A stretch of 64,000 nt of DNA, from NCBI GenBank assembly GCA_005503215.1, contig SCNS01000002.1, forward strand, positions 124,001 to 188,000, given 5' to 3'. Source of the stretch: Sphingomonadaceae bacterium 3R27C6 (GTDB lineage Bacteria > Pseudomonadota > Alphaproteobacteria > Sphingomonadales > Sphingomonadaceae). Shown piece by piece: positions 1,551 through 41,477 of the stretch. Positions within the stretch are counted from its first letter, which is position 1, and each line of letters starts with the position of its first letter. A program made the translations under genes and the position numbers. The notes beneath the pieces were generated by a model that saw only the letters and a list, made by a program, of their open reading frames with translations, made no database searches and was not told the DNA's origin.

Positions 1551-4298
1551 TTGACCGAAGAAAATACGCCTACGCCGCCGTCCGAGGATGGCGTTTCGCC
1601 GATCAACATCGTCGACGAAATGAAGACCTCGTACCTCGATTACGCGATGAGCGTGATCGTCAGCCGCGCGCTGCCCGACGTGCGCGACGGACTGAAACCG
1701 GTGCATCGCCGCATCCTTTACGCGGCGCAGGAAGGCGGCTTCATCCCGGGCCGCCCGTACAAGAAATCGGCGAAGATCGTCGGCGACGTGATGGGTAACT
1801 ATCACCCGCATGGCGACAGCGCGATTTACGACGCGCTCGCGCGCATGACGCAGGACTGGTCGCTGCGCGTGCCGCTGATCGACGGTCAGGGCAATTTCGG
1901 CTCGATGGACCCCGATCCGCCAGCATCGATGCGTTACACCGAAGCGCGCCTCGCCAAGACCGCGATGGTGCTGCTGAACGATCTCGACAAGGATACGGTC
2001 GACTTCCAGCCCAACTATGACGCCAGCCGCGACGAGCCGACGGTGCTCCCGGCGCGCTTCCCGAACCTGCTCGTCAACGGCGCGGGCGGCATCGCGGTCG
2101 GCATGGCGACCAATATCCCGCCGCATAACCTCGGCGAAATCATCGACGCGACGCTCGCGATGATCGACCGCCAGCTCGAAGGCGGCGAACCCGTCACGCT
2201 CGAGGAATTGATGGCGATCGTCCCCGGTCCCGATTTCCCGACCGGCGCGATGATGCTCGGCCAGGGCGGCGCGCGCAACGCTTATGCCACGGGCCGCGGC
2301 TCGATCATGATGCGCGCGACGCATATCATCGAGGAAGGCCGGAACGACCGCCAATCGATTGTTCTGACGTCGATTCCTTTCCAGGTCGGCAAGTCGGGGC
2401 TCGTCGAGAAGATCGCCGAGGCGGCGCGCGACAAGCGCATCGAGGGCGTCGCCGACATCCGCGACGAATCGAACCGCGAGGGCGTACGCGTCGTCATCGA
2501 GCTGAAGCGCGATGCGACCGCCGAGGTCGTGCTCAACCAGCTCTGGCGCCACACCCCGGCGCAGTCGAGCTTCCCCGCGAACATGCTCGCGATCCGCGGC
2601 GGACGCCCCGAAATGATGGGGCTGAAGGACATTCTTTCGGCCTTTATCGCCTTCCGCGAGGAAGTGATCACCCGCCGCTGCAAGTTCGAACTCGCCAAGG
2701 CGCGCGACCGCGCGCACATCTTGCTCGGCCTCGTCGTCGCGGTCAGCAATCTCGACGAAGTCGTCCGCATCATCCGCGGCTCGAACTCGCCCGCCGCCGC
2801 CCGCGAAGCGCTGCTCGCGCGCGAATGGCCGATCGGCGAAATCGCCCCTTACATCCGCCTCGTCGAAGCGATCGAGGGCGAGATGGAGGAAAGCGCCACC
2901 TATCGCCTTTCCGAAGTGCAGGTGAAGGCGATCCTCGACCTCCGCCTCCACCGCCTGACCGCGCTCGGCCGCGATGAAATCGGCAAGGAACTCGGTGAGT
3001 TGGCGACCGAGATTGAGGAGCTGCTTTCGATCCTCGCCGACCGCGTCAAACTCTATGGCGTGATGCGCGAAGAGCTCGTCGCGGTACGCGAGGAATTCGC
3101 GACCCCGCGCCGCACCCTCCTCGCTCCCGCCGCCGACGGCATCGACGACGAGGATCTGATCGAGCGCGAGGAGATGGTCGTCACCGTCACCCTCGACGGC
3201 TATATCAAGCGCACTCCGCTCGACACTTTCCGCGCCCAGCGCCGCGGCGGCAAGGGCCGCGCCGGTATGGCGACGAAGGACGAGGATGTCGTCACCGAGC
3301 TGTTCGTCACCTCGACGCACACGCCGGTGCTCTTCTTCTCGACCGCGGGCAAGGTGTACCGCATGAAGGTGTGGCGCCTGCCCGAAGGCGGGCCCGCGAC
3401 GCGCGGCCGCCCGATGATCAACCTGCTGCCGCTCGCGCAGGGCGAGACGATCTCGACCGTGCTGCCGCTTCCCGAGGACGAGGCCGAATGGGGCAAGCTG
3501 CACGTCATGTTCGCAACCGCGAAGGGCAGCGTGCGTCGTAACAGCATGGACGCTTTCACCAACGTGCCCTCGAACGGCAAGATTGCGATGAAGTTCGAGG
3601 GCGAGGATGAGGACGATCGCCTGATCGGCGTCGCGCTCCTCGACGAGAGCGACGATGTCCTGCTCGCGACGCGCCAGGGCAAGGCGATCCGCTTCGCCGG
3701 CGACGATGTCCGCGAATTCCAGAGCCGCAATTCGACCGGCGTGCGCGGCATGCGGCTGGCAGAGGGCGACGAGGTGATCTCGCTCTCGATCCTGCACCGC
3801 GTCGGCACCACCGGCGACGAGCGCGAAGCCTATCTGCGCGCCGCACCGTGGAAGGATAACGAGAATGAACCGACGCTCGACGGCGAGCGCATGGCCGAGC
3901 TGGCCGCGCGCGAACAGTTCATCCTCACCGTCTGCGCCAACGGCTATGGCAAATTGTCGTCGGCTTATGAATATCGGCGCACGGGCCGCGGCGGTCAGGG
4001 CATCACCAATATCGACAATATCGCGCGCAACGGCCTTGTCGTTGCCAGCTTCCCCGCGACCAAGGTGCATCAGCTGATGCTGGTGACCGACCAGGCAAAG
4101 CTGATCCGCATGGGCCTCGATTCGATGCGCGTCATCGGCCGCGGATCGGCGGGCGTACGCCTGTTCGACGTCGCGAAGGACGAGCATGTCGTCTCGGCGG
4201 CACTCATCGAGGAAAGCGACGAGGAAGAAGTCGAAGGCGCTGAAGGCGAAGCAACGGCACCCGAGGCCGAAACTCCGACCGAGGCGGCGCCCGAATGA
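1551..4298 (+). CDS. gyrA: DNA gyrase subunit A
   Basis: 915 residues, a normal length for GyrA. It is the breakage-reunion subunit that, with GyrB, introduces negative supercoils using ATP. The start is a TTG at 1551 giving [10 protein letters not shown], preceded by a weak purine-rich AAAAAAGG. The active-site tyrosine is Y129 in SMRYTEARL. The quinolone-resistance region reads [10 protein letters not shown], with Ser90 and Asp94 at the places of E. coli Ser83 and Asp87, so both carry the wild-type, drug-sensitive residues. The GyrA box QRRGGKG opens the C-terminal pinwheel domain near residue 560. The tail is acidic and rich in Glu and Ala. A DUF952 gene overlaps its stop codon by ATGA. 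Confidence 0.98.
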
Positions 4299-34187: not shown

Positions 34188-34283
34188 GCCCGCCGCATAT
34201 CGGCTGGACCGCGGAATGCAAGCCGCGGCGTCCACGCCGACATGGTTACGCTTTAGTAAGCCATGTTGGGTAGGAGAAAACCG

Positions 34284-34766
34284 ATGGATAGCGGCACAAT
34301 CTCGCTCGGCCTGATGGCTATACTCGGCCTGTTGATGATTGCCGCGGCAATCAGCGACGTCCGGTCGCGCACCATTTCCAACGAGCTCAACGCCGCGATG
34401 GCGCTGCTCGCAATCCCCTTCTGGATCGCCAGCGGCCTCGCCCTCTGGCCCGACGTGCCGCTTCAGTTCGGCGCCGCCTTCGCGGTCTTTCTTGTCTTTG
34501 CCGGCCTGTTCGCGATCGGCGCGATGGGCGGCGGCGATGTCAAGATGATCGGCGCGGTGATGCTGTGGATCCCGCTTCCGCTGTTCATGCCGACCCTGAT
34601 GGTCATGGCCATTGGGGGTGGCATCCTGTCGGCTGCGATGCTTATCCATATGAAATTGCGCCCTTCGGACAAACCGGTCGAGGTTCCCTATGGGGTTGCC
34701 ATCGCCGCTGCGGGCCTTTGGGCGCTTCACCAACAATATCTTAACCAGTTTCAGGTTATCGGATGA
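34284..34766 (+). CDS. cpaA: Prepilin peptidase CpaA/TadV
   Basis: 160 residues from the ATG at 34284, preceded by TAGGAG. It is a short A24 aspartyl peptidase that processes Flp prepilin and pseudopilins. The two catalytic aspartates are in AAISDVRSRTIS and GGGDVKMIGA (the GxGD motif). About five to six membrane helices. First gene of the Tad locus; no flp pilin gene lies in the 96 bp before it, where it would often be. Confidence 0.93.
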   Translation: MDSGTISLGLMAILGLLMIAAAISDVRSRTISNELNAAMALLAIPFWIASGLALWPDVPLQFGAAFAVFLVFAGLFAIGAMGGGDVKMIGAVMLWIPLPLFMPTLMVMAIGGGILSAAMLIHMKLRPSDKPVEVPYGVAIAAAGLWALHQQYLNQFQVIG

Positions 34767-34820
34767 CCTGAGGGAAAAGCACGACCGTCTCTGGTGGGTG
34801 CAGGAGGGCGACAAATCGTC

Positions 34821-35858
34821 ATGGATACGCGAAAGATTATGCTGATCGTCGGCGCGCTGGTGATTGCCATCAGCGCAGCGTTCGGGGTCAACCAGATGAT
34901 GCGCGGAGCAGCCACTCCGCAAGCGCGTGCAGCGGCGGCGCCGGACATTACCGGTCCGATGATCCTTGTCGCGACGCGGCAACTGCCCGTCGGCACGATT
35001 GTCGGCCCGGACAGCTTCCGCTTCCAGCCCTGGCCCAAGGAATTGGTCGAAAAGGCCTATTTCATGAAGGACAAGACCGACGTGAACACGTTGGTCGGCA
35101 CCGTCGTGCGCTATCCGATCACCGCCGGCCAGCCGCTGACACAAGGCGCACTCGTCCATCCCGACGATCGCGGCTTCCTCGCCGCGGCGCTTGGCCCGGG
35201 CATGCGTGCCGTTACCGTAAAGGTCAGCCAAGAACAGGGCGTCGCCGGTTTCGTCTTTCCGGGCGACCGCGTCGATGTGGTGCTGGCTCAGACGATCTCG
35301 GTCGAGGAAGGCAGCAGCTTTCCCGACAAGCAGATATTCACGGCCGAGACGATCGTTCGCAATGTCCGCATATTGGCGACCGATCAGCGTTATGACGCCG
35401 AGGATGAAACCGGGAAGACCCCGGTTCGCACCTTTGGCTCGGTGACGCTCGAAGCCACGCCGGAAATCGCCGAGAAGATCGCCGTCGCGCAGGACATGGG
35501 CAAATTGTCGCTCGCACTGCGTCCGCTGGCCGAAAGCGCCGGCGAACTCGATGCGGCCATCGCGTCGGGCGACATCAATGTGCCGGCCAAGGGCGGCTCC
35601 GTGGCGGAAAAACGGATGCTCGCCGAAGCCGCCGCACGTCCGGTTGCCAGCCGCTCGACGGTGACCACGGGCGGCGACGTGTCGCGCTTCTGGATCCCGG
35701 TGCGCGGCCGCGTGAACTCCGCGCGGGCGCCGCAGGCTGCAACGAATGGCGGCGGCTTCATGCCGTCTAATGGGGGCGCCGTGTCCGTTCCGACCGGTCC
35801 GGTCGTGCGCGTGACCCGCGGCGACAAGATGACCGAAGTTCCGGTTGGGGGTAAGTAA
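34821..35858 (+). CDS. cpaB: Flp pilus assembly protein CpaB/RcpC
   Basis: 345 residues from the ATG at 34821; CAGGAGG lies 13 bp upstream. One N-terminal membrane helix (IMLIVGALVIAISAAFGVNQM) and then a SAF domain (LVATRQLPVGTIVGPDSFRF), followed by the RcpC/CpaB domain with VTVKVSQEQGVAGFVFPGDRVDVV. It is a periplasmic component linking the secretin to the inner-membrane machine. The C-terminal 60 residues are Gly/Ser/Val-rich and low in complexity. cpaC starts 1 bp after the stop. Confidence 0.93.
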   Translation: MDTRKIMLIVGALVIAISAAFGVNQMMRGAATPQARAAAAPDITGPMILVATRQLPVGTIVGPDSFRFQPWPKELVEKAYFMKDKTDVNTLVGTVVRYPITAGQPLTQGALVHPDDRGFLAAALGPGMRAVTVKVSQEQGVAGFVFPGDRVDVVLAQTISVEEGSSFPDKQIFTAETIVRNVRILATDQRYDAEDETGKTPVRTFGSVTLEATPEIAEKIAVAQDMGKLSLALRPLAESAGELDAAIASGDINVPAKGGSVAEKRMLAEAAARPVASRSTVTTGGDVSRFWIPVRGRVNSARAPQAATNGGGFMPSNGGAVSVPTGPVVRVTRGDKMTEVPVGGK

Positions 35859-35859
35859 G

Positions 35860-37404
35860 ATGAACAGCACAGCCAAATTCAAGGCGGCGGCTCTGGCCCG
35901 CACCCTGGCCATCGGCCTGGTGGCAGCCACGCTGGCAGCGGCACCTTCGGCGCCCGCCATCGCCCAGGCCGTCCAGAATGCCAGCAGCAGCATCGAACTC
36001 TCGGTGGGCCGTGGCCGCCTGGTCAGCCTTCCGGCCTCGATGTCCGACGTCTTTGTCGCCAATGACGAAGTCGCCGACGTCCAGGTGCGTTCGGGCCGCC
36101 AGCTCTATATCTTTGGCAAGAAGCCGGGCGAAACCAGCATCTATGCCACCGACGCCAGCGGCCGTGTCGTTTTCTCGACCGTCGCCCGCGTCGGCAACAA
36201 TATCGAGACGATCGACCAGATGCTGTCGCTCGCCATGCCCGACGCCAGCATTTCGGCAAATACGATGAACGGCTTCGTGCTGCTCACCGGTACGGTCCAG
36301 TCACCCGACGATGCCGCCGAAGCCGAACGGCTCGTCCAGGCGTTCGTCGGCGAGCCGACCAAGGTCTTGTCGCGTCTTCGCACGGCCACGCCGCTACAGG
36401 TCAACCTGCAGGTCCGCATCGCCGAAGTGAACCGCTCGCTGGTCAAGGAAATCAGCGGCAACTTGAAGACCCTCGACTCGACCGGCGGTTTTCTCGGCGG
36501 AGTCTTTGGTGGCCGGAATCCCGGCACGATCACTCGCATCCCTGCACCGACCGCCGTGTTTCCCGGGAGCCCGGCGCCGCGCCCATATGATCCTGTCACG
36601 GGCCAGCCGATCAATTCGCCGTTTCTCGGCACCTCCTATGAGGTCGTTACGCCCTCCGGCACGCGCAGCCTTGCCGGTGCCGGCCGCCTGTTCGGGCTCG
36701 ACCTGATCGCCTCACTCGATATCGGCGAACGATCGGGCTTGGTCGCAACGCTGGCGCAGCCCAATTTGACCGCCATTTCCGGCGAAACCGCTGACTTCCT
36801 TGCCGGCGGCGAGTTCCCGGTTCCGGTCCCCGGCAATTTTGCCGGCACGACGATCGAATATCGCAAATATGGCGTCAGCCTCGCCTACACGCCGACCGTG
36901 CTGTCGAATGGCCGGATCAGCCTGCGCGTTCGCCCCGAAGTATCCGAACTGTCGACCGAAGGCGCGATCGTGATGCAGGGGTTCCAGGTTCCCGCCTTGA
37001 CGATTCGCCGCGCCGAAACGACGGTCGAACTCGGCTCGGGCGAAAGCTTCATGATCGCGGGGTTGATGAACAATCGTTCGATCGGCGCGATCGACAAGAT
37101 GCCCGGCCTCGGCGACGTTCCGCTACTCGGCATGCTGTTCAAATCGGACAGCTTCCGCCGCGGCGAAACCGAACTCGTCATCGTCGTGACGCCCTATCTG
37201 GTCCAGCCGGTGTCGGCGAACGACATCAAACTGCCCACCGACGCCTTCCAGGATTCCGACGACCTGCAGCGGCTTCTGCTCAACCAGACGAGCAACGGCG
37301 TGACGGGGGGGGACCGGCCGAAACCGCGGCTCGACACCTCGATCGGCGACGCCGATCGCCCGCGGGGCAGCGGCGACGCGTCGCCCGGCTTCAGCATCAA
37401 GTGA
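35860..37404 (+). CDS. cpaC: Tad pilus outer-membrane secretin CpaC/RcpA
   Basis: 514 residues from the ATG at 35860, preceded by GGGGGTAAG. A signal peptide (cleavage near APAIAQA) is followed by the pilus secretin N domain (SIELSVGRGRLVSLP), a BON-like segment, and the secretin domain with LAQPNLTAISGETADFLAGGEFPVPVP and the terminal VIVVTPYLVQPV. It forms the outer-membrane channel for the Flp pilus. Its middle includes a Pro/Gly-rich insertion around residues 215-245. Confidence 0.95.
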   Translation: MNSTAKFKAAALARTLAIGLVAATLAAAPSAPAIAQAVQNASSSIELSVGRGRLVSLPASMSDVFVANDEVADVQVRSGRQLYIFGKKPGETSIYATDASGRVVFSTVARVGNNIETIDQMLSLAMPDASISANTMNGFVLLTGTVQSPDDAAEAERLVQAFVGEPTKVLSRLRTATPLQVNLQVRIAEVNRSLVKEISGNLKTLDSTGGFLGGVFGGRNPGTITRIPAPTAVFPGSPAPRPYDPVTGQPINSPFLGTSYEVVTPSGTRSLAGAGRLFGLDLIASLDIGERSGLVATLAQPNLTAISGETADFLAGGEFPVPVPGNFAGTTIEYRKYGVSLAYTPTVLSNGRISLRVRPEVSELSTEGAIVMQGFQVPALTIRRAETTVELGSGESFMIAGLMNNRSIGAIDKMPGLGDVPLLGMLFKSDSFRRGETELVIVVTPYLVQPVSANDIKLPTDAFQDSDDLQRLLLNQTSNGVTGGDRPKPRLDTSIGDADRPRGSGDASPGFSIK

Positions 37405-37429
37405 CGCGCTGGATTTCAGGAGCAAAGTG

Positions 37430-38071
37430 ATGAAAAAAATCGCAACTTGGACGGTCCTGGCTCTGGCCACGTCGCTCGCCGGCTGCACTGGCGCGGCGGT
37501 CAGCAACCGCAGCCTCGAGTCGGTCCACCAGCCTGTCGTGCGCAACGCCATCTATCAATTCGATGTTGCCGCTTCGAACGGCGAACTGCCGCCCAGCGAA
37601 CAGGGCCGCCTGCAAGGCTGGCTCGATTCGATGGGGGTTCGTTATGGCGACCGCGTCGCGATCGAGGATCCGTCGGCCTATGGCGCCGGCTCAGCACTGG
37701 CGACCGTCCGGTCGATGATCGAACGCCGCGGGCTGCTGCTCAGCAGGGATGTCCCGGTAACGACCGGCGCGGTGCCGCAGGACCACCTGCGCGTCGTCGT
37801 GACGCGGGCGACGGCATCCGTGCCCGGCTGCCCCAATTGGGAGAGCAAATCGTCGATCAACCCGACCAACTCGACATCGTCGAACTATGGCTGCGCGATC
37901 AACAGCAATCTTGCCTCGATGGTCGCCGATCCGAACGACCTGATCAAGGGCGCCAGCAATACGGGCAGCGATCCGACGGCGGCGACGCGTGCGATCCAAA
38001 CCTATCGTACCAAACCCCAAACCGGTGCCGGCGAACTGACCAAGACACCTACCAGCGGAGGCAGCCAATGA
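37430..38071 (+). CDS. cpaD: Tad pilus assembly lipoprotein CpaD
   Basis: 213 residues from the ATG at 37430, preceded by AGGAGC. Lipoprotein signal with lipobox SLAGC. The CpaD domain is marked by YQFDVAASNGELPPSEQGRL, the VRVVVTRA-like strand HLRVVVTRATASVPGCPNW, and FGCA-like NYGCAINSNLASMVADPNDL. CpaD helps place the secretin in the outer membrane. The stop overlaps cpaE by ATGA. Confidence 0.92.
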   Translation: MKKIATWTVLALATSLAGCTGAAVSNRSLESVHQPVVRNAIYQFDVAASNGELPPSEQGRLQGWLDSMGVRYGDRVAIEDPSAYGAGSALATVRSMIERRGLLLSRDVPVTTGAVPQDHLRVVVTRATASVPGCPNWESKSSINPTNSTSSNYGCAINSNLASMVADPNDLIKGASNTGSDPTAATRAIQTYRTKPQTGAGELTKTPTSGGSQ

Positions 38072-39339
38072 ACGCTCCTTTCAAATCAGCAGGCGCGCGT
38101 GACCCCTTCAACGCCTTCGTTTGCGACGACGATACGCTGGAGCTGATCCGCGCCGCGGTCAACGACATGGGCTGGCCGATCGAAAAATGTAACAAGGGCG
38201 GACTGCGCAACGCTGTGCAATCGCTTTCGGTCTCCGCCAGCCCGAACATCCTGTTCGTCGACATGTCGGAATCGGGCGATCCGATCAACGACATCAATGC
38301 GCTGGCCGAAGTCTGCGAGCCGGGCACTGTCGTGATCGCCGCGGGCCAGGTGAACGACGTTCGCCTGTACCGCGACCTCCTGTCCAGCGGCATCCAGGAT
38401 TATCTGCTGAAGCCGCTGTCGCTCGACCAGGTCCGCGAATCGTTCACCATGGCGCAGGCCATGCTGTCGGCTCCGAAACATGCCGACATGCACGACGACA
38501 AGCCGCATCATATGATGGGCGTTGTCGGTGTACGCGGCGGCGTCGGGGCGTCGCTGGTGGCGACCTCGCTCGCCTGGGCGATCAGCGAACAGGCGGGCCG
38601 CCAGACGGCGCTGCTCGATCTTGACATCCATTTCGGCACGGGCGCGCTGACGCTCGACCTCGAACCGGGGCGCGGCCTGATCGACGCGATCGACAATCCC
38701 AGCCGCATCGACGGGCTGTTCATCGAACGCGCGATGGTGCGAGCGTCGGACAAGCTTAGCCTGCTGTCAGCCGAAGCGCCGATCCATCAGCCGGTGATGA
38801 CCGACGGTTCGGCCTTTTTCCAGCTGGAAGAAGAGCTGCGTTCCGCCTTCGAGATGACGATTGTCGACATCCCGCGCCAGGTGTTGATCCCCTTCCCGCA
38901 CCTCGTGTCGGAAGCCGGCACGATCCTGCTCGTCAGCGATGTGACGCTCGCCGCCGCGCGCGACACGATCCGCCTCCTGTCCTGGTTCAAACAGAACATC
39001 CCGGGCGCGCGTGTCGTGCTCGTCGCGAACAAGTTCCAGAACGCCATCGGCGAGCTGTCGCGCAAGGAATTCGAATCGTCGATCGAACGACCGATCGACA
39101 TCGTCATCCCGTTCGATCCGAAGCTGGTCGCCCAATCGGCAAAGCTCGGCAAATCCTATGCCGAAACCTGCAAGGGCACCAAGTCGGCGCAGGTGTGGAG
39201 CAACCTGATGCGCATCATCCTCGACGGCGCCGATGTCGAAGCCGAGGAAGCGCAGATCGTCACCGCAAAGAGCAAATCGGGCGGCTCGCTGCTCGGCAAG
39301 CTCGGGCTGACCAAAAAGGGCGTGAAACAGGCGGCGTGA
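38068..39339 (+). CDS. cpaE: Tad pilus localisation ATPase-like protein CpaE/TadZ
   Basis: 423 residues from the ATG at 38068. An N-terminal receiver-like domain (FVCDDDTLELIRAAV, ILFVDMSESGD, then IQDYLLKPLSLDQV) precedes a MinD/ParA-type ATPase domain with the degenerate Walker A GVRGGVGASLVATSLAWA, lacking the usual Lys-Thr pair as in other CpaE proteins, and ALLDLDIHFGTGALTLDLEPG. TadZ/CpaE directs the pilus machine to the cell pole. In most Tad loci the next gene is cpaF; here tadB follows after 57 bp. Confidence 0.93.
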   Translation: MNAPFKSAGARDPFNAFVCDDDTLELIRAAVNDMGWPIEKCNKGGLRNAVQSLSVSASPNILFVDMSESGDPINDINALAEVCEPGTVVIAAGQVNDVRLYRDLLSSGIQDYLLKPLSLDQVRESFTMAQAMLSAPKHADMHDDKPHHMMGVVGVRGGVGASLVATSLAWAISEQAGRQTALLDLDIHFGTGALTLDLEPGRGLIDAIDNPSRIDGLFIERAMVRASDKLSLLSAEAPIHQPVMTDGSAFFQLEEELRSAFEMTIVDIPRQVLIPFPHLVSEAGTILLVSDVTLAAARDTIRLLSWFKQNIPGARVVLVANKFQNAIGELSRKEFESSIERPIDIVIPFDPKLVAQSAKLGKSYAETCKGTKSAQVWSNLMRIILDGADVEAEEAQIVTAKSKSGGSLLGKLGLTKKGVKQAA

Positions 39340-39396
39340 CGGCGCGCCTGACGGGCCGTCACCACCTCCAGCGATAGAAGCGGACATCAGCTGACC

Positions 39397-40365
39397 ATGA
39401 ATCTGCCAGTCATCCTTATCATCGCGGGGGCCTTCCTGGCCTTTGCCCTCCTCGTGATCTTGCTTGGCGGGCCTTCGTCCGGCAAGGCAAAGACGCGGCG
39501 ACTGGCGATGGTCAAGGACCGCCACGCCGCCTCGACCGAAGCGGTGGTGGCGGCACAGATGCGCAAGACGATCCAGTCGGGCCGCAACGGCGATTCATCG
39601 CTGATCGCTTTGTTGCCGCGCAGGGACGAGCTGGAAAAGCGCATCCGCCGGACCGGCAAAAACTGGTCGCTTACACAATATATGTTCGCGTCGATGATCG
39701 TGTTTGTCGTGGCAACCGGCGGCATGCTCATCGTGCGCGCGCCGTTCCTGATGGCCGCGTTGGTTGGATTGCTCCTCGGGCTCGGCTTGCCCTATCTGAT
39801 CGTCGGCATGACGATCAACAGGCGTGTCAAGGCGTTCAACGCCCGCTTTCCCGACGCTATCGATCTGCTGGTACGTGGCCTGAAATCCGGTCTGCCGGTC
39901 ACCGAAACCTTTCAAGTGGTGAGCCAGGAACTTCCCGGGCCGGTCGGGGAGGAATTCAAGGGCGTCGTCGAACGCATCCGTATCGGCAACACGATGGAAG
40001 CGGCGTTGCAGGAAACGGCCGAAATGCTCGGCACGCCCGAATTCCAATTCTTCTGCATCACGATCCAGATCCAGCGCGAAACGGGTGGCAACCTCGCGGA
40101 AACGCTGGCCAACCTGTCCGACGTTTTGCGCAAGCGGGCGCAAATGAAGCTCAAGATCCGCGCGATGTCGTCCGAAGCAAAAGCTTCCGCCTATATCGTC
40201 GGCGCACTGCCCTTCTTTGTGTTCGGCGTCGTCTGGACAGTGAACCCCGGTTATCTGGCGGGCTTTTTTGTCGAAGAGCGCCTCATCATTGCGGGGATAG
40301 GCGGCCTGATCTGGATGAGCATCGGCGCCGGCATCATGGCCAAAATGGTCAACTTCGAAATCTGA
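39397..40365 (+). CDS. tadB: Tad inner-membrane platform protein TadB
   Basis: 322 residues. An N-terminal membrane helix (ILIIAGAFLAFALLVILLGG) is followed by two more helices and the type II secretion F domain (FPDAIDLLVRGLKSGLPVTETFQVVSQE, then GTPEFQFFCITIQIQRETGGNLAETLANLSDVLR). It forms the platform with TadC on which the ATPase CpaF would act. A convincing ribosome site is not visible, so translation may depend on cpaE or on a weak signal. Confidence 0.93.
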   Translation: MNLPVILIIAGAFLAFALLVILLGGPSSGKAKTRRLAMVKDRHAASTEAVVAAQMRKTIQSGRNGDSSLIALLPRRDELEKRIRRTGKNWSLTQYMFASMIVFVVATGGMLIVRAPFLMAALVGLLLGLGLPYLIVGMTINRRVKAFNARFPDAIDLLVRGLKSGLPVTETFQVVSQELPGPVGEEFKGVVERIRIGNTMEAALQETAEMLGTPEFQFFCITIQIQRETGGNLAETLANLSDVLRKRAQMKLKIRAMSSEAKASAYIVGALPFFVFGVVWTVNPGYLAGFFVEERLIIAGIGGLIWMSIGAGIMAKMVNFEI

Positions 40366-40378
40366 CGGGGGCATAGAA

Positions 40379-41422
40379 ATGAACAGCGGCCTCCTTCTCT
40401 CTTCGGCTTTCTCTGGCGCACAAGCCGGACCGAAGATCCTTGGTATCGACGTCGTATGGGCCGGCACGATGCTTGCGGCGGTCGGCGTCTTTGCCGTCCT
40501 GTTCGCGATCTACAACGCGCTGACCGTTCGCAACCCGATGACCAAGCGCGTCAAGGCGCTGAACGATCGGCGCGAGCAGTTGAAGGCGGGCATCACCGCC
40601 TCGACCGCGAAACGCCGCGCACGGCTCGTCCGCAAGAACCAGACCGCCGACAAGATGCGGACCTTCCTGGGCCGGCTCCAGGTGCTGCAGGAAGAACAGG
40701 TCAAGGAGGTTCAGCAAAAGCTGGCGCAGGCCGGTATCCGGTCGAAGGATCTCGCCGTGGCGGTCATTTTCGGCCGCATGGTCCTGCCGATCATCTTCGG
40801 CGGCCTCGCTCTTTTCCTGATCTATTGGGTCGATATGTGGCCCGACCTGACGTCGTTCAAGCGCTCCATGTATACGATGGGCGCCTTGATACTCGGCTAC
40901 AAGGCACCCGACCTTTTCGTGGATAATAAGCGCCAGAAGCGTACCCACGCGATCCGCAAAGGCCTGCCCGACGCGCTCGACCTGCTCGTCATCTGCGCCG
41001 AAGCCGGTTTGACGGTCGACTCCGCCTTTTCACGCGTCTCTAAGGAGCTGGGCCGGGCGTATCCCGAGCTCGGCGAAGAGTTCGCGCTGACGTCGATCGA
41101 GCTCGGCTTTCTGACCGAACGCCGGCAGGCTTTCGAAAACTTCGCCTATCGCGTGAATCTGGAATCGGTGAAGGGCGTGGTCACGACCATGATCCAGACC
41201 GAGAAATACGGCACGCCGCTCGCCAGCGCGCTTCGGGTCCTGTCGGCCGAATTCCGCAACGAGCGCATGATGCGCGCCGAGGAAAAGGCCGCGCGCCTGC
41301 CCGCTATCATGACGGTGCCGCTCATTCTGTTCATTCTGCCGGTGCTGTTCGTCGTCATTCTTGGCCCGGCGGCCTGTTCGCTGAGCGACGCCATGGCGGG
41401 CGGCAGCCTCGGCGCCAAATAG
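40379..41422 (+). CDS. tadC: Tad inner-membrane platform protein TadC
   Basis: 347 residues with a type II secretion F domain: GLPDALDLLVICAEAGLTVDSAFSRVS, YPELGEEFALTSIELGFLTERRQAFENF and GVVTTMIQTEKYGTPLASALRVLS. Three to four membrane helices, the last near residue 310. It is the last gene of the locus; a very strong terminator begins 26 bp after its stop. No tadD, tadE, tadF or tadG follows. Confidence 0.93.
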   Translation: MNSGLLLSSAFSGAQAGPKILGIDVVWAGTMLAAVGVFAVLFAIYNALTVRNPMTKRVKALNDRREQLKAGITASTAKRRARLVRKNQTADKMRTFLGRLQVLQEEQVKEVQQKLAQAGIRSKDLAVAVIFGRMVLPIIFGGLALFLIYWVDMWPDLTSFKRSMYTMGALILGYKAPDLFVDNKRQKRTHAIRKGLPDALDLLVICAEAGLTVDSAFSRVSKELGRAYPELGEEFALTSIELGFLTERRQAFENFAYRVNLESVKGVVTTMIQTEKYGTPLASALRVLSAEFRNERMMRAEEKAARLPAIMTVPLILFILPVLFVVILGPAACSLSDAMAGGSLGAK

Positions 41423-41448
41423 CCCGGCAACACCGGCACGAAATCGGG

Positions 41449-41477
41449 AGAGGGCGGAAGCAGTTCCGCCCTCTTTT
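41449..41477 (+). terminator. Strong terminator closing the Tad locus
   Basis: AGAGGGCGGAA (41449-41459) pairs perfectly over 11 bp with TTCCGCCCTCT (41464-41474) around the loop GCAG, followed by a T run to 41477. It lies between tadC and the convergent fumarylacetoacetase-family gene. Confidence 0.85.

Follow-up and report, generated by a model that had tools for sequence, protein, structure and literature searches.

Two described systems come closest to the locus reported here. For the motor ATPase CpaF of Caulobacter crescentus, the relevant passages of two papers (PMC11300603, PMC12019362) name the aspartate of Loop 8 and the E-G-x-G of the central loop as docking residues for TadB/TadC. 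For S. granuli TFA, the part of PMC6472365 that deals with these genes places a seven-gene cluster without cpaF, cpaABCDEtadBC, at 1907-1901 and cpaF at a distance from it, at 3775; the Flp pilin (3632) and tadGE1E2 (0765-0767) also occupy separate loci. Under anoxia the tad genes, the Flp pilin, tadGE1E2 and cpaF were all repressed, cpaF five-fold. Both the split arrangement and the co-regulation have already been published for S. granuli; that part of the paper lists the genes without remark on the split or on the origin of cpaF.

The locus studied here lies in a stretch of 64,000 nucleotides from Sphingomonadaceae bacterium 3R27C6 (genome G000), called the window below. The Tad/Flp genes cpaA, cpaB, cpaC, cpaD, cpaE, tadB and tadC are all present in the window, and all seven frames are open. 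The features, by position in the window, are as follows.

34241-34264, plus strand: palindrome-like element CATGGTTAC-N6-GTAAGCCAT directly upstream of cpaA, a sequence kept in the genus
34263-34766, plus strand: cpaA, prepilin peptidase A24 (Pfam PF01478, E=2.8e-14)
34794-35858, plus strand: cpaB/rcpC (PF16976, E=2.9e-33; TIGR03177 above cut-off)
35845-37404, plus strand: cpaC, secretin (PF00263, E=2.2e-38; PF13629)
37427-38071, plus strand: cpaD (PF09476, E=2.5e-52)
38068-39339, plus strand: cpaE, ParA/MinD-like, 423 aa, with its start within a longer open reading frame from 37447
39340-39396, no strand: 57-bp junction, the site of cpaF in most examined tad loci of other families of the order and of the class
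39397-40365, plus strand: tadB (cpaG), platform protein (PF00482, E=1.2e-26)
40379-41422, plus strand: tadC (cpaH), platform protein (PF00482, E=5.1e-19)
41446-41477, plus strand: hairpin terminator downstream of tadC (-23.6 kcal/mol, z -4.9, then T)

The start of cpaE overlaps the stop of cpaD, and tadB opens with an ATG only 57 bp downstream of the end of cpaE, with no cpaF in between. For cpaA, the ATG at 34284 is the likelier start. CpaE was named partly by its position, as its matches to ParA/MinD/Ssd-type profiles were weak and under the cut-offs. The preliminary description of this DNA had stated that cpaF is absent from the gap between cpaE and tadB and that the rest of the locus is intact with a strong terminator. 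Both statements hold: the coordinates and the complete lack of T2SSE matches on the window's contig confirm the first, and the seven open tad genes and the hairpin after tadC, which was missing from a consensus terminator scan, agree with the second.

Upstream of cpaA, CATGGTTAC-N6-GTAAGCCAT or a close variant was found in 20 of 21 Sphingopyxis regions, G017 giving no match. Judged from its sequence, the element is a possible regulator site of the tad operon; we take it to resemble a CtrA box, and it may be a CtrA-type site.

The preliminary description had left three readings of the gap, namely that cpaF lies elsewhere, that it was lost with silencing of the pilus, or that another ATPase serves, and had suggested a genome-wide T2SSE search. 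A search of the whole G000 genome with profile PF00437 (T2SSE) returned six matches, none of them on the window's contig. One was a CpaF, and the first reading proved right. The gene (G000:C49:265125-266612, minus strand) is uninterrupted, encodes 496 aa and lies on another contig directly after atpC; atpA, atpG, atpD and atpC of an F-ATPase lie on its 5' side on the same strand (subunits named from their sequences). The product matches the T2SSE domain PF00437 with E=1.6e-57 and contains the regions that we take to be the Walker A, Walker B and His motifs. The nearest solved structures were the CpaF entries 9e24, 8rkd and 8rjf (E ~1e-138), followed by 2oap, 'Type II secretion system protein', at E=1.4e-40. 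The score against TIGR03819 was 328.8 bits, under the cut-off of 373, but this cut-off does not discriminate here because both in-locus CpaFs that were tried also scored below it (346.1 and 340.7). Its gene lies outside the cpaE-tadB gap, a place that is frequent for cpaF but does not define the protein.

With an intact cpaF in G000, the reading of a lost motor and a silenced pilus was not supported. The other five T2SSE matches were one GspE and four TrbB, and their presence in G000 is what could be said for a GspE or TrbB as the driver of this pilus. However, each of the five passed its own NCBIfam cut-off, the GspE gene sits between gspD-like and gspF-like genes (neighbours named by eye), and the genome has a proper CpaF, so that we give a GspE- or TrbB-driven pilus next to no credence. 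The idea that another ATPase serves stands in part: the distant protein seems to be a paralogue of the in-locus CpaF, but it is still a CpaF and neither GspE nor TrbB. The four TrbB-type conjugation ATPases (L003, L004, L005 and L006) lie on four contigs, which suggests several conjugative elements in G000.

The cpaF gene is under strong purifying selection, with dN/dS of 0.009-0.111 against eight relatives; for tadB the values were 0.072-0.101 (three of eight pairs). In G000, atpC and cpaF are separated by a hairpin of 14 pairs (-26.1 kcal/mol) that has a T run. It makes a joint transcript of the ATP-synthase genes and cpaF unlikely in this genome, and most likely cpaF has a promoter of its own. 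A consensus scan of the interval listed neither a hairpin terminator nor a sigma-70 promoter. Upstream of cpaF, the block CATTAGGACAATGTCAAAGTTT (G000:C49:266694-266715) was kept across most of the genus sample; in the alignment, which held 28 of the 29 Sphingopyxis upstream regions, about 40 bp were closely similar in 26 and partly similar in the other two (G015, G017). This stretch was also found in G013, in which atpC is not the neighbour, and the block occurred a single time in the G000 genome with up to three mismatches allowed. No regulatory motif common to cpaF and the tad operon was found: the conserved blocks upstream of cpaF and cpaA differ, and no counterpart of the CATGGTTAC-N6-GTAAGCCAT element of cpaA was seen upstream of cpaF.

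The second suggested check, comparison of the junction in related sphingomonads, showed that the cpaF-less adjacency recurs across the genus and the family. In a genus sample of 30 Sphingopyxis genomes including G000, this type of CpaF was found in 29, with atpC within 1.5 kb of cpaF at 26 of the 29 loci. G022 is the one genome without it; a true absence of cpaF was rejected there, its contig stopping 493 bp after atpD. TadB was found in 29 of the 30 genomes, and the order cpaE-tadB-tadC without cpaF was present at 29 of 30 Sphingopyxis tadB loci, the thirtieth being part of an additional tad system in G008, which includes a cpaF. In a family sample of 39 Sphingomonadaceae genomes, two of them from Sphingopyxis, 32 carried the same type of CpaF at 70% identity or more (in G058 as a fragment at a contig start), four had only a CpaF of 49-58% identity and three had none. 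Outside Sphingopyxis, 27 of 28 fetched tadB loci of the family read cpaE-tadB-tadC, with G034 as the exception; the order in G064 is cpaE-cpaF-tadB-tadC. Altogether the cpaF-less order was seen at 56 of 58 family-type tad loci. As the direct cpaE-tadB adjacency recurs in Sphingopyxis and in other genera of the family, at 56 Sphingomonadaceae loci, an assembly error at the junction is very unlikely.

Other families of the order were represented by 29 genomes, with G074 and G089 left out of the fetched loci. The order cpaE-cpaF-tadB was present in 23 of the 29, and G067 showed cpaF-tadB at a contig start; no match was obtained in G077 or G094, and G078 had only a cpaF lying away from any tad locus, hereafter a solo gene. 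In the class, 19 of 22 loci read cpaE-cpaF-tadB. The named relatives of the G000 protein (the best 80 of at least 511) were headed by Sphingopyxis, followed by Sphingorhabdus, Novosphingobium, Sphingobium, Erythrobacter and Qipengyuania among others. The flanks of these best 80 loci, which reach up to 8 kb and less where a contig ends, contained no tadB, and those of 43 loci contained atpC or atpD. The ATP-synthase neighbourhood is a common but not a universal address of solo cpaF.

The absence of cpaF had been presented as an anomaly, against which a distant cpaF throughout the genus would speak. A distant cpaF is the rule in the genus, and therefore the gap itself is ordinary for Sphingomonadaceae. 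This removes a false alarm: the locus alone would read as an incomplete Tad system, and its motor is a regular gene at a distance.

Solo CpaF and the family-type tad locus also go together. In the combined genus and family samples (67 genomes), both were present in 57 and both were missing in seven, four of which have another kind of tad locus that includes a cpaF; two had the solo CpaF only (G009 in 550 contigs, G049 in 380 contigs), and one, G022 with its contig end, had the tad locus only. Fisher's test gave p=3e-7 with the genomes counted as independent and kinship uncorrected. These counts bear on the possibility that the motor was simply lost, that the tad locus is motorless and decaying, and that the distant CpaF serves something else. 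Such another job is conceivable, since the old solo branch (described below) coexists elsewhere with an in-locus motor and adjoins a DUF6812 gene, and a broken solo copy is tolerated in G019. Against this, all seven tad genes in the window have open frames, the cpaF-less order persists at nearly all family-type loci, and seven genomes lack solo CpaF together with the family-type tad locus. The common repression of cpaF and the tad genes in S. granuli (in the part of PMC6472365 cited above) points the same way, and we regard loss as very improbable.

In G019, the solo cpaF is broken by an insertion of ~3.2 kb (L212 3400-7250; G019:C1:3710472-3715249) while the tad locus persists, so the motor is dispensable at least in this genome; this suggests that it can be lost from individual strains. 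The insertion holds transposase-like and alcohol-dehydrogenase-like open reading frames, both named by eye, the former presumably IS1380-like.

Conserved residues were compared with those of the Caulobacter motor. The G000 protein shares with C. crescentus CpaF the ATPase family, the Walker A motif and the docking loops, and the two align from residue 80 onwards (relevant passages of PMC11300603 and PMC12019362; 9e24 and 8rkd by sequence); before residue 80 there is no alignment. It differs in that its Loop 8 reads D-Q instead of D-E and in that its gene lies away from the tad locus. With the Loop 8 position mapped through alignment to C. crescentus D208/E209, the aspartate was kept in all 65 family solo loci and in all 80 named loci (the best 80 of at least 511), and the central-loop E-G-x-G in all 22 family solos examined. 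Residues D207, E330, G331 and G333 (numbered as in P0001) were invariant across a 13-row alignment and the same 22 solos. Conservation of the aspartate and of E-G-x-G is expected if the solos dock alone on TadB/TadC.

The residue that follows the aspartate was compared as well. It was Glu in 32 of 32 in-locus rows and Gln in 22 of 22 family solo rows of the 60-row tree described below. Over all fetched loci it was Gln in 65/65 family solos and in 80/80 named loci (again the best 80 of at least 511), and Glu in 18/18 order loci, 18/18 further in-locus copies and 18/22 class loci; the other four class CpaFs lack a D-E Loop 8. Solos of other families had Gln (G078, G072) or Met (G081, G085) at this position, and G083 and G082 had lost the aspartate too.

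In a tree of 108 CpaF rows (L103, L035 and L067 removed by hand, L036 under the score limit), the family solos formed a single clade, separate from the order's in-locus CpaFs. A second tree was built from 60 hand-picked rows, which took in 22 of the 63 family solos, 13 of the 18 order rows and 11 of the 22 class rows, together with 14 other copies. Its 32 in-locus and 28 solo rows were split at 100/100, the solo side consisting of the 22 Sphingomonadaceae rows and one row each from G078, G072, G081, G082, G083 and G085. The duplication depth is less sure than this split because several solo rows are long-branched, the bootstrap was unsettled (correlation 0.930) and the rows were chosen by hand. 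The in-locus CpaF/TadA proteins of order and class are likewise T2SSE ATPases of Tad loci; they differ from the G000 protein in the place of their gene, between cpaE and tadB, and in forming a separate clade. Forcing the family solos into one clade with the two in-locus CpaFs of G034 and G064 cost 97.7 log units (AU p=2e-6, for a clade defined after the first tree had been viewed). Grouping of the G000-type CpaF with in-locus CpaF of the same family thus fails in both the 60-row tree and the AU test, and it is the latter that rejects a duplication within Sphingomonadaceae.

The distant CpaF therefore looks, from its sequence, like a paralogue of the ordinary in-locus protein and not like its relocated orthologue. 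A simple relocation would have carried the in-locus cpaF of the family ancestor to the ATP-synthase operon, where it evolved fast, with no paralogue swap. Such a history would fit what is seen in the family samples, one solo-type motor to a genome, and the long stem of the family solo clade, which rapid change after the transfer would produce. It is, however, at odds with the AU test and with the Loop 8 residue, Glu in every in-locus row of the tree and Gln in every family solo, as well as with the small downstream gene, mostly DUF6812, that solos share. It also does not fit the genomes that hold both types of CpaF. There are seven of these, G034 and G064 in Sphingomonadaceae and G072, G081, G082, G083 and G085 in other families, one of the latter with a split solo. 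Taken together, we consider relocation improbable. The split solo is that of G072 (L311 7323-8779; G072:C2), in which cpaF forms two overlapping frames beside an open DUF6812 gene; the split reflects either decay of the copy or an error in sequencing.

Two further trees bear on G034 and G064. In a TadB tree (Sphingopyxis rows thinned to nine; without class rows L127-L143, L067 and L168), the TadBs of both genomes joined the family's cpaF-less TadBs, apart from the in-locus TadBs of other families (98/98), and G034 fell, weakly supported (89/76 and 95/80), among the core genomes. In a species tree from ATP-synthase proteins, without G043 and G049, which had no AtpA at the cut-off, G064 was the first branch of Sphingomonadaceae. 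The second was a group of G032, G045, G054 and G062, without solo CpaF or family-type tad locus, and G034 was sister to the core clade (88.5/84; core clade 100/94). Relations outside the family were poorly resolved, and G103 of another family fell among the order. Given these tree positions and the genomes with both genes, a single in-locus loss on the core branch takes the fewest steps. Later motor replacements occur: the only CpaF of G039, a genome nested within the core clade, is an in-locus protein of another type.

The solos of other families (G081, G083, G085, G072 and G078, with G149 by neighbourhood only) resemble the family solos in belonging to the solo branch and in that tadB or cpaE was not seen adjacent. 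They differ in having a DUF6812 gene next to them and, in G072, G081, G082, G083 and G085, an in-locus CpaF as well. At six of the eight solo loci outside the core family with genes listed, a small gene of 81-105 aa lies directly 3' of cpaF; it matched DUF6812 above the cut-off in four, below it in G034 (19.5 bits) and not at all in G082. At the remaining two loci (G078, G081), a DUF6812 match follows directly after the solo gene. Over 60 genomes of the order, DUF6812 was present in nine and adjoined a CpaF gene in seven, including G149, whose CpaF was assigned by neighbourhood only and is outside the tree; in G076 and G092 it did not adjoin one. Among 17 searched Sphingomonadaceae genomes it was missing from 16 and present only in G064. 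Both in other families and in G064, an early branch, the DUF6812 gene often overlaps the stop codon of the solo cpaF. Examples after solo cpaF are L320 7927-8184, L323 7387-7632, L210 9585-9830 and L311 7078-7323.

We consider it likely that the tad motor of the window is supplied in trans by an ancient solo paralogue, which replaced the lost in-locus CpaF. The tad locus would be complete save for its motor, which the single intact CpaF beside the F-ATPase operon would supply. The solo protein would represent an old branch of the CpaF family that formerly coexisted with ordinary in-locus CpaF, as two family members outside the core clade, G034 and G064, would still reflect by retaining both. 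The ancestor of core Sphingomonadaceae would have lost the in-locus gene, leaving the solo paralogue as the only motor, and the DUF6812 partner gene would have been lost as well. We infer that the solo CpaF powers the pilus of the window. By analogy with Caulobacter CpaF, its hexamer would dock on TadB/TadC through Loop 8 and the central loop, and its ATP hydrolysis would drive pilin assembly and retraction. As a more tentative elaboration, which we think possible but somewhat doubtful, early relatives may have used two CpaFs, one in-locus and one solo with DUF6812, before the solo took over and DUF6812 became needless. With two such motors, the job of the solo was perhaps retraction, surface response or another filament.

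In the open-access PMC literature we found no paper on a CpaF swap, no experiment on a solo motor, no paper on DUF6812, and none on solo CpaF and DUF6812 as a pair that accompanies ordinary Tad motors in related bacteria; pilus terms are absent from the main text of PMC4741004. If the replacement by a solo paralogue is true, the Tad pili of most of a large environmental family are powered by a paralogue whose docking loop has changed, and the family offers a natural experiment on the CpaF residues that matter for TadB/TadC.

Additional tad loci were also noticed. They are more distant in type and include an in-locus cpaF; the loci are L216 (G008:C5), L315, L316, L317, L318, L325 and L326. One such locus accompanies the family-type system in G008, G041 and G055, and two do so in G059. 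In G093 and G102 a locus of this kind occurs along with a solo CpaF.
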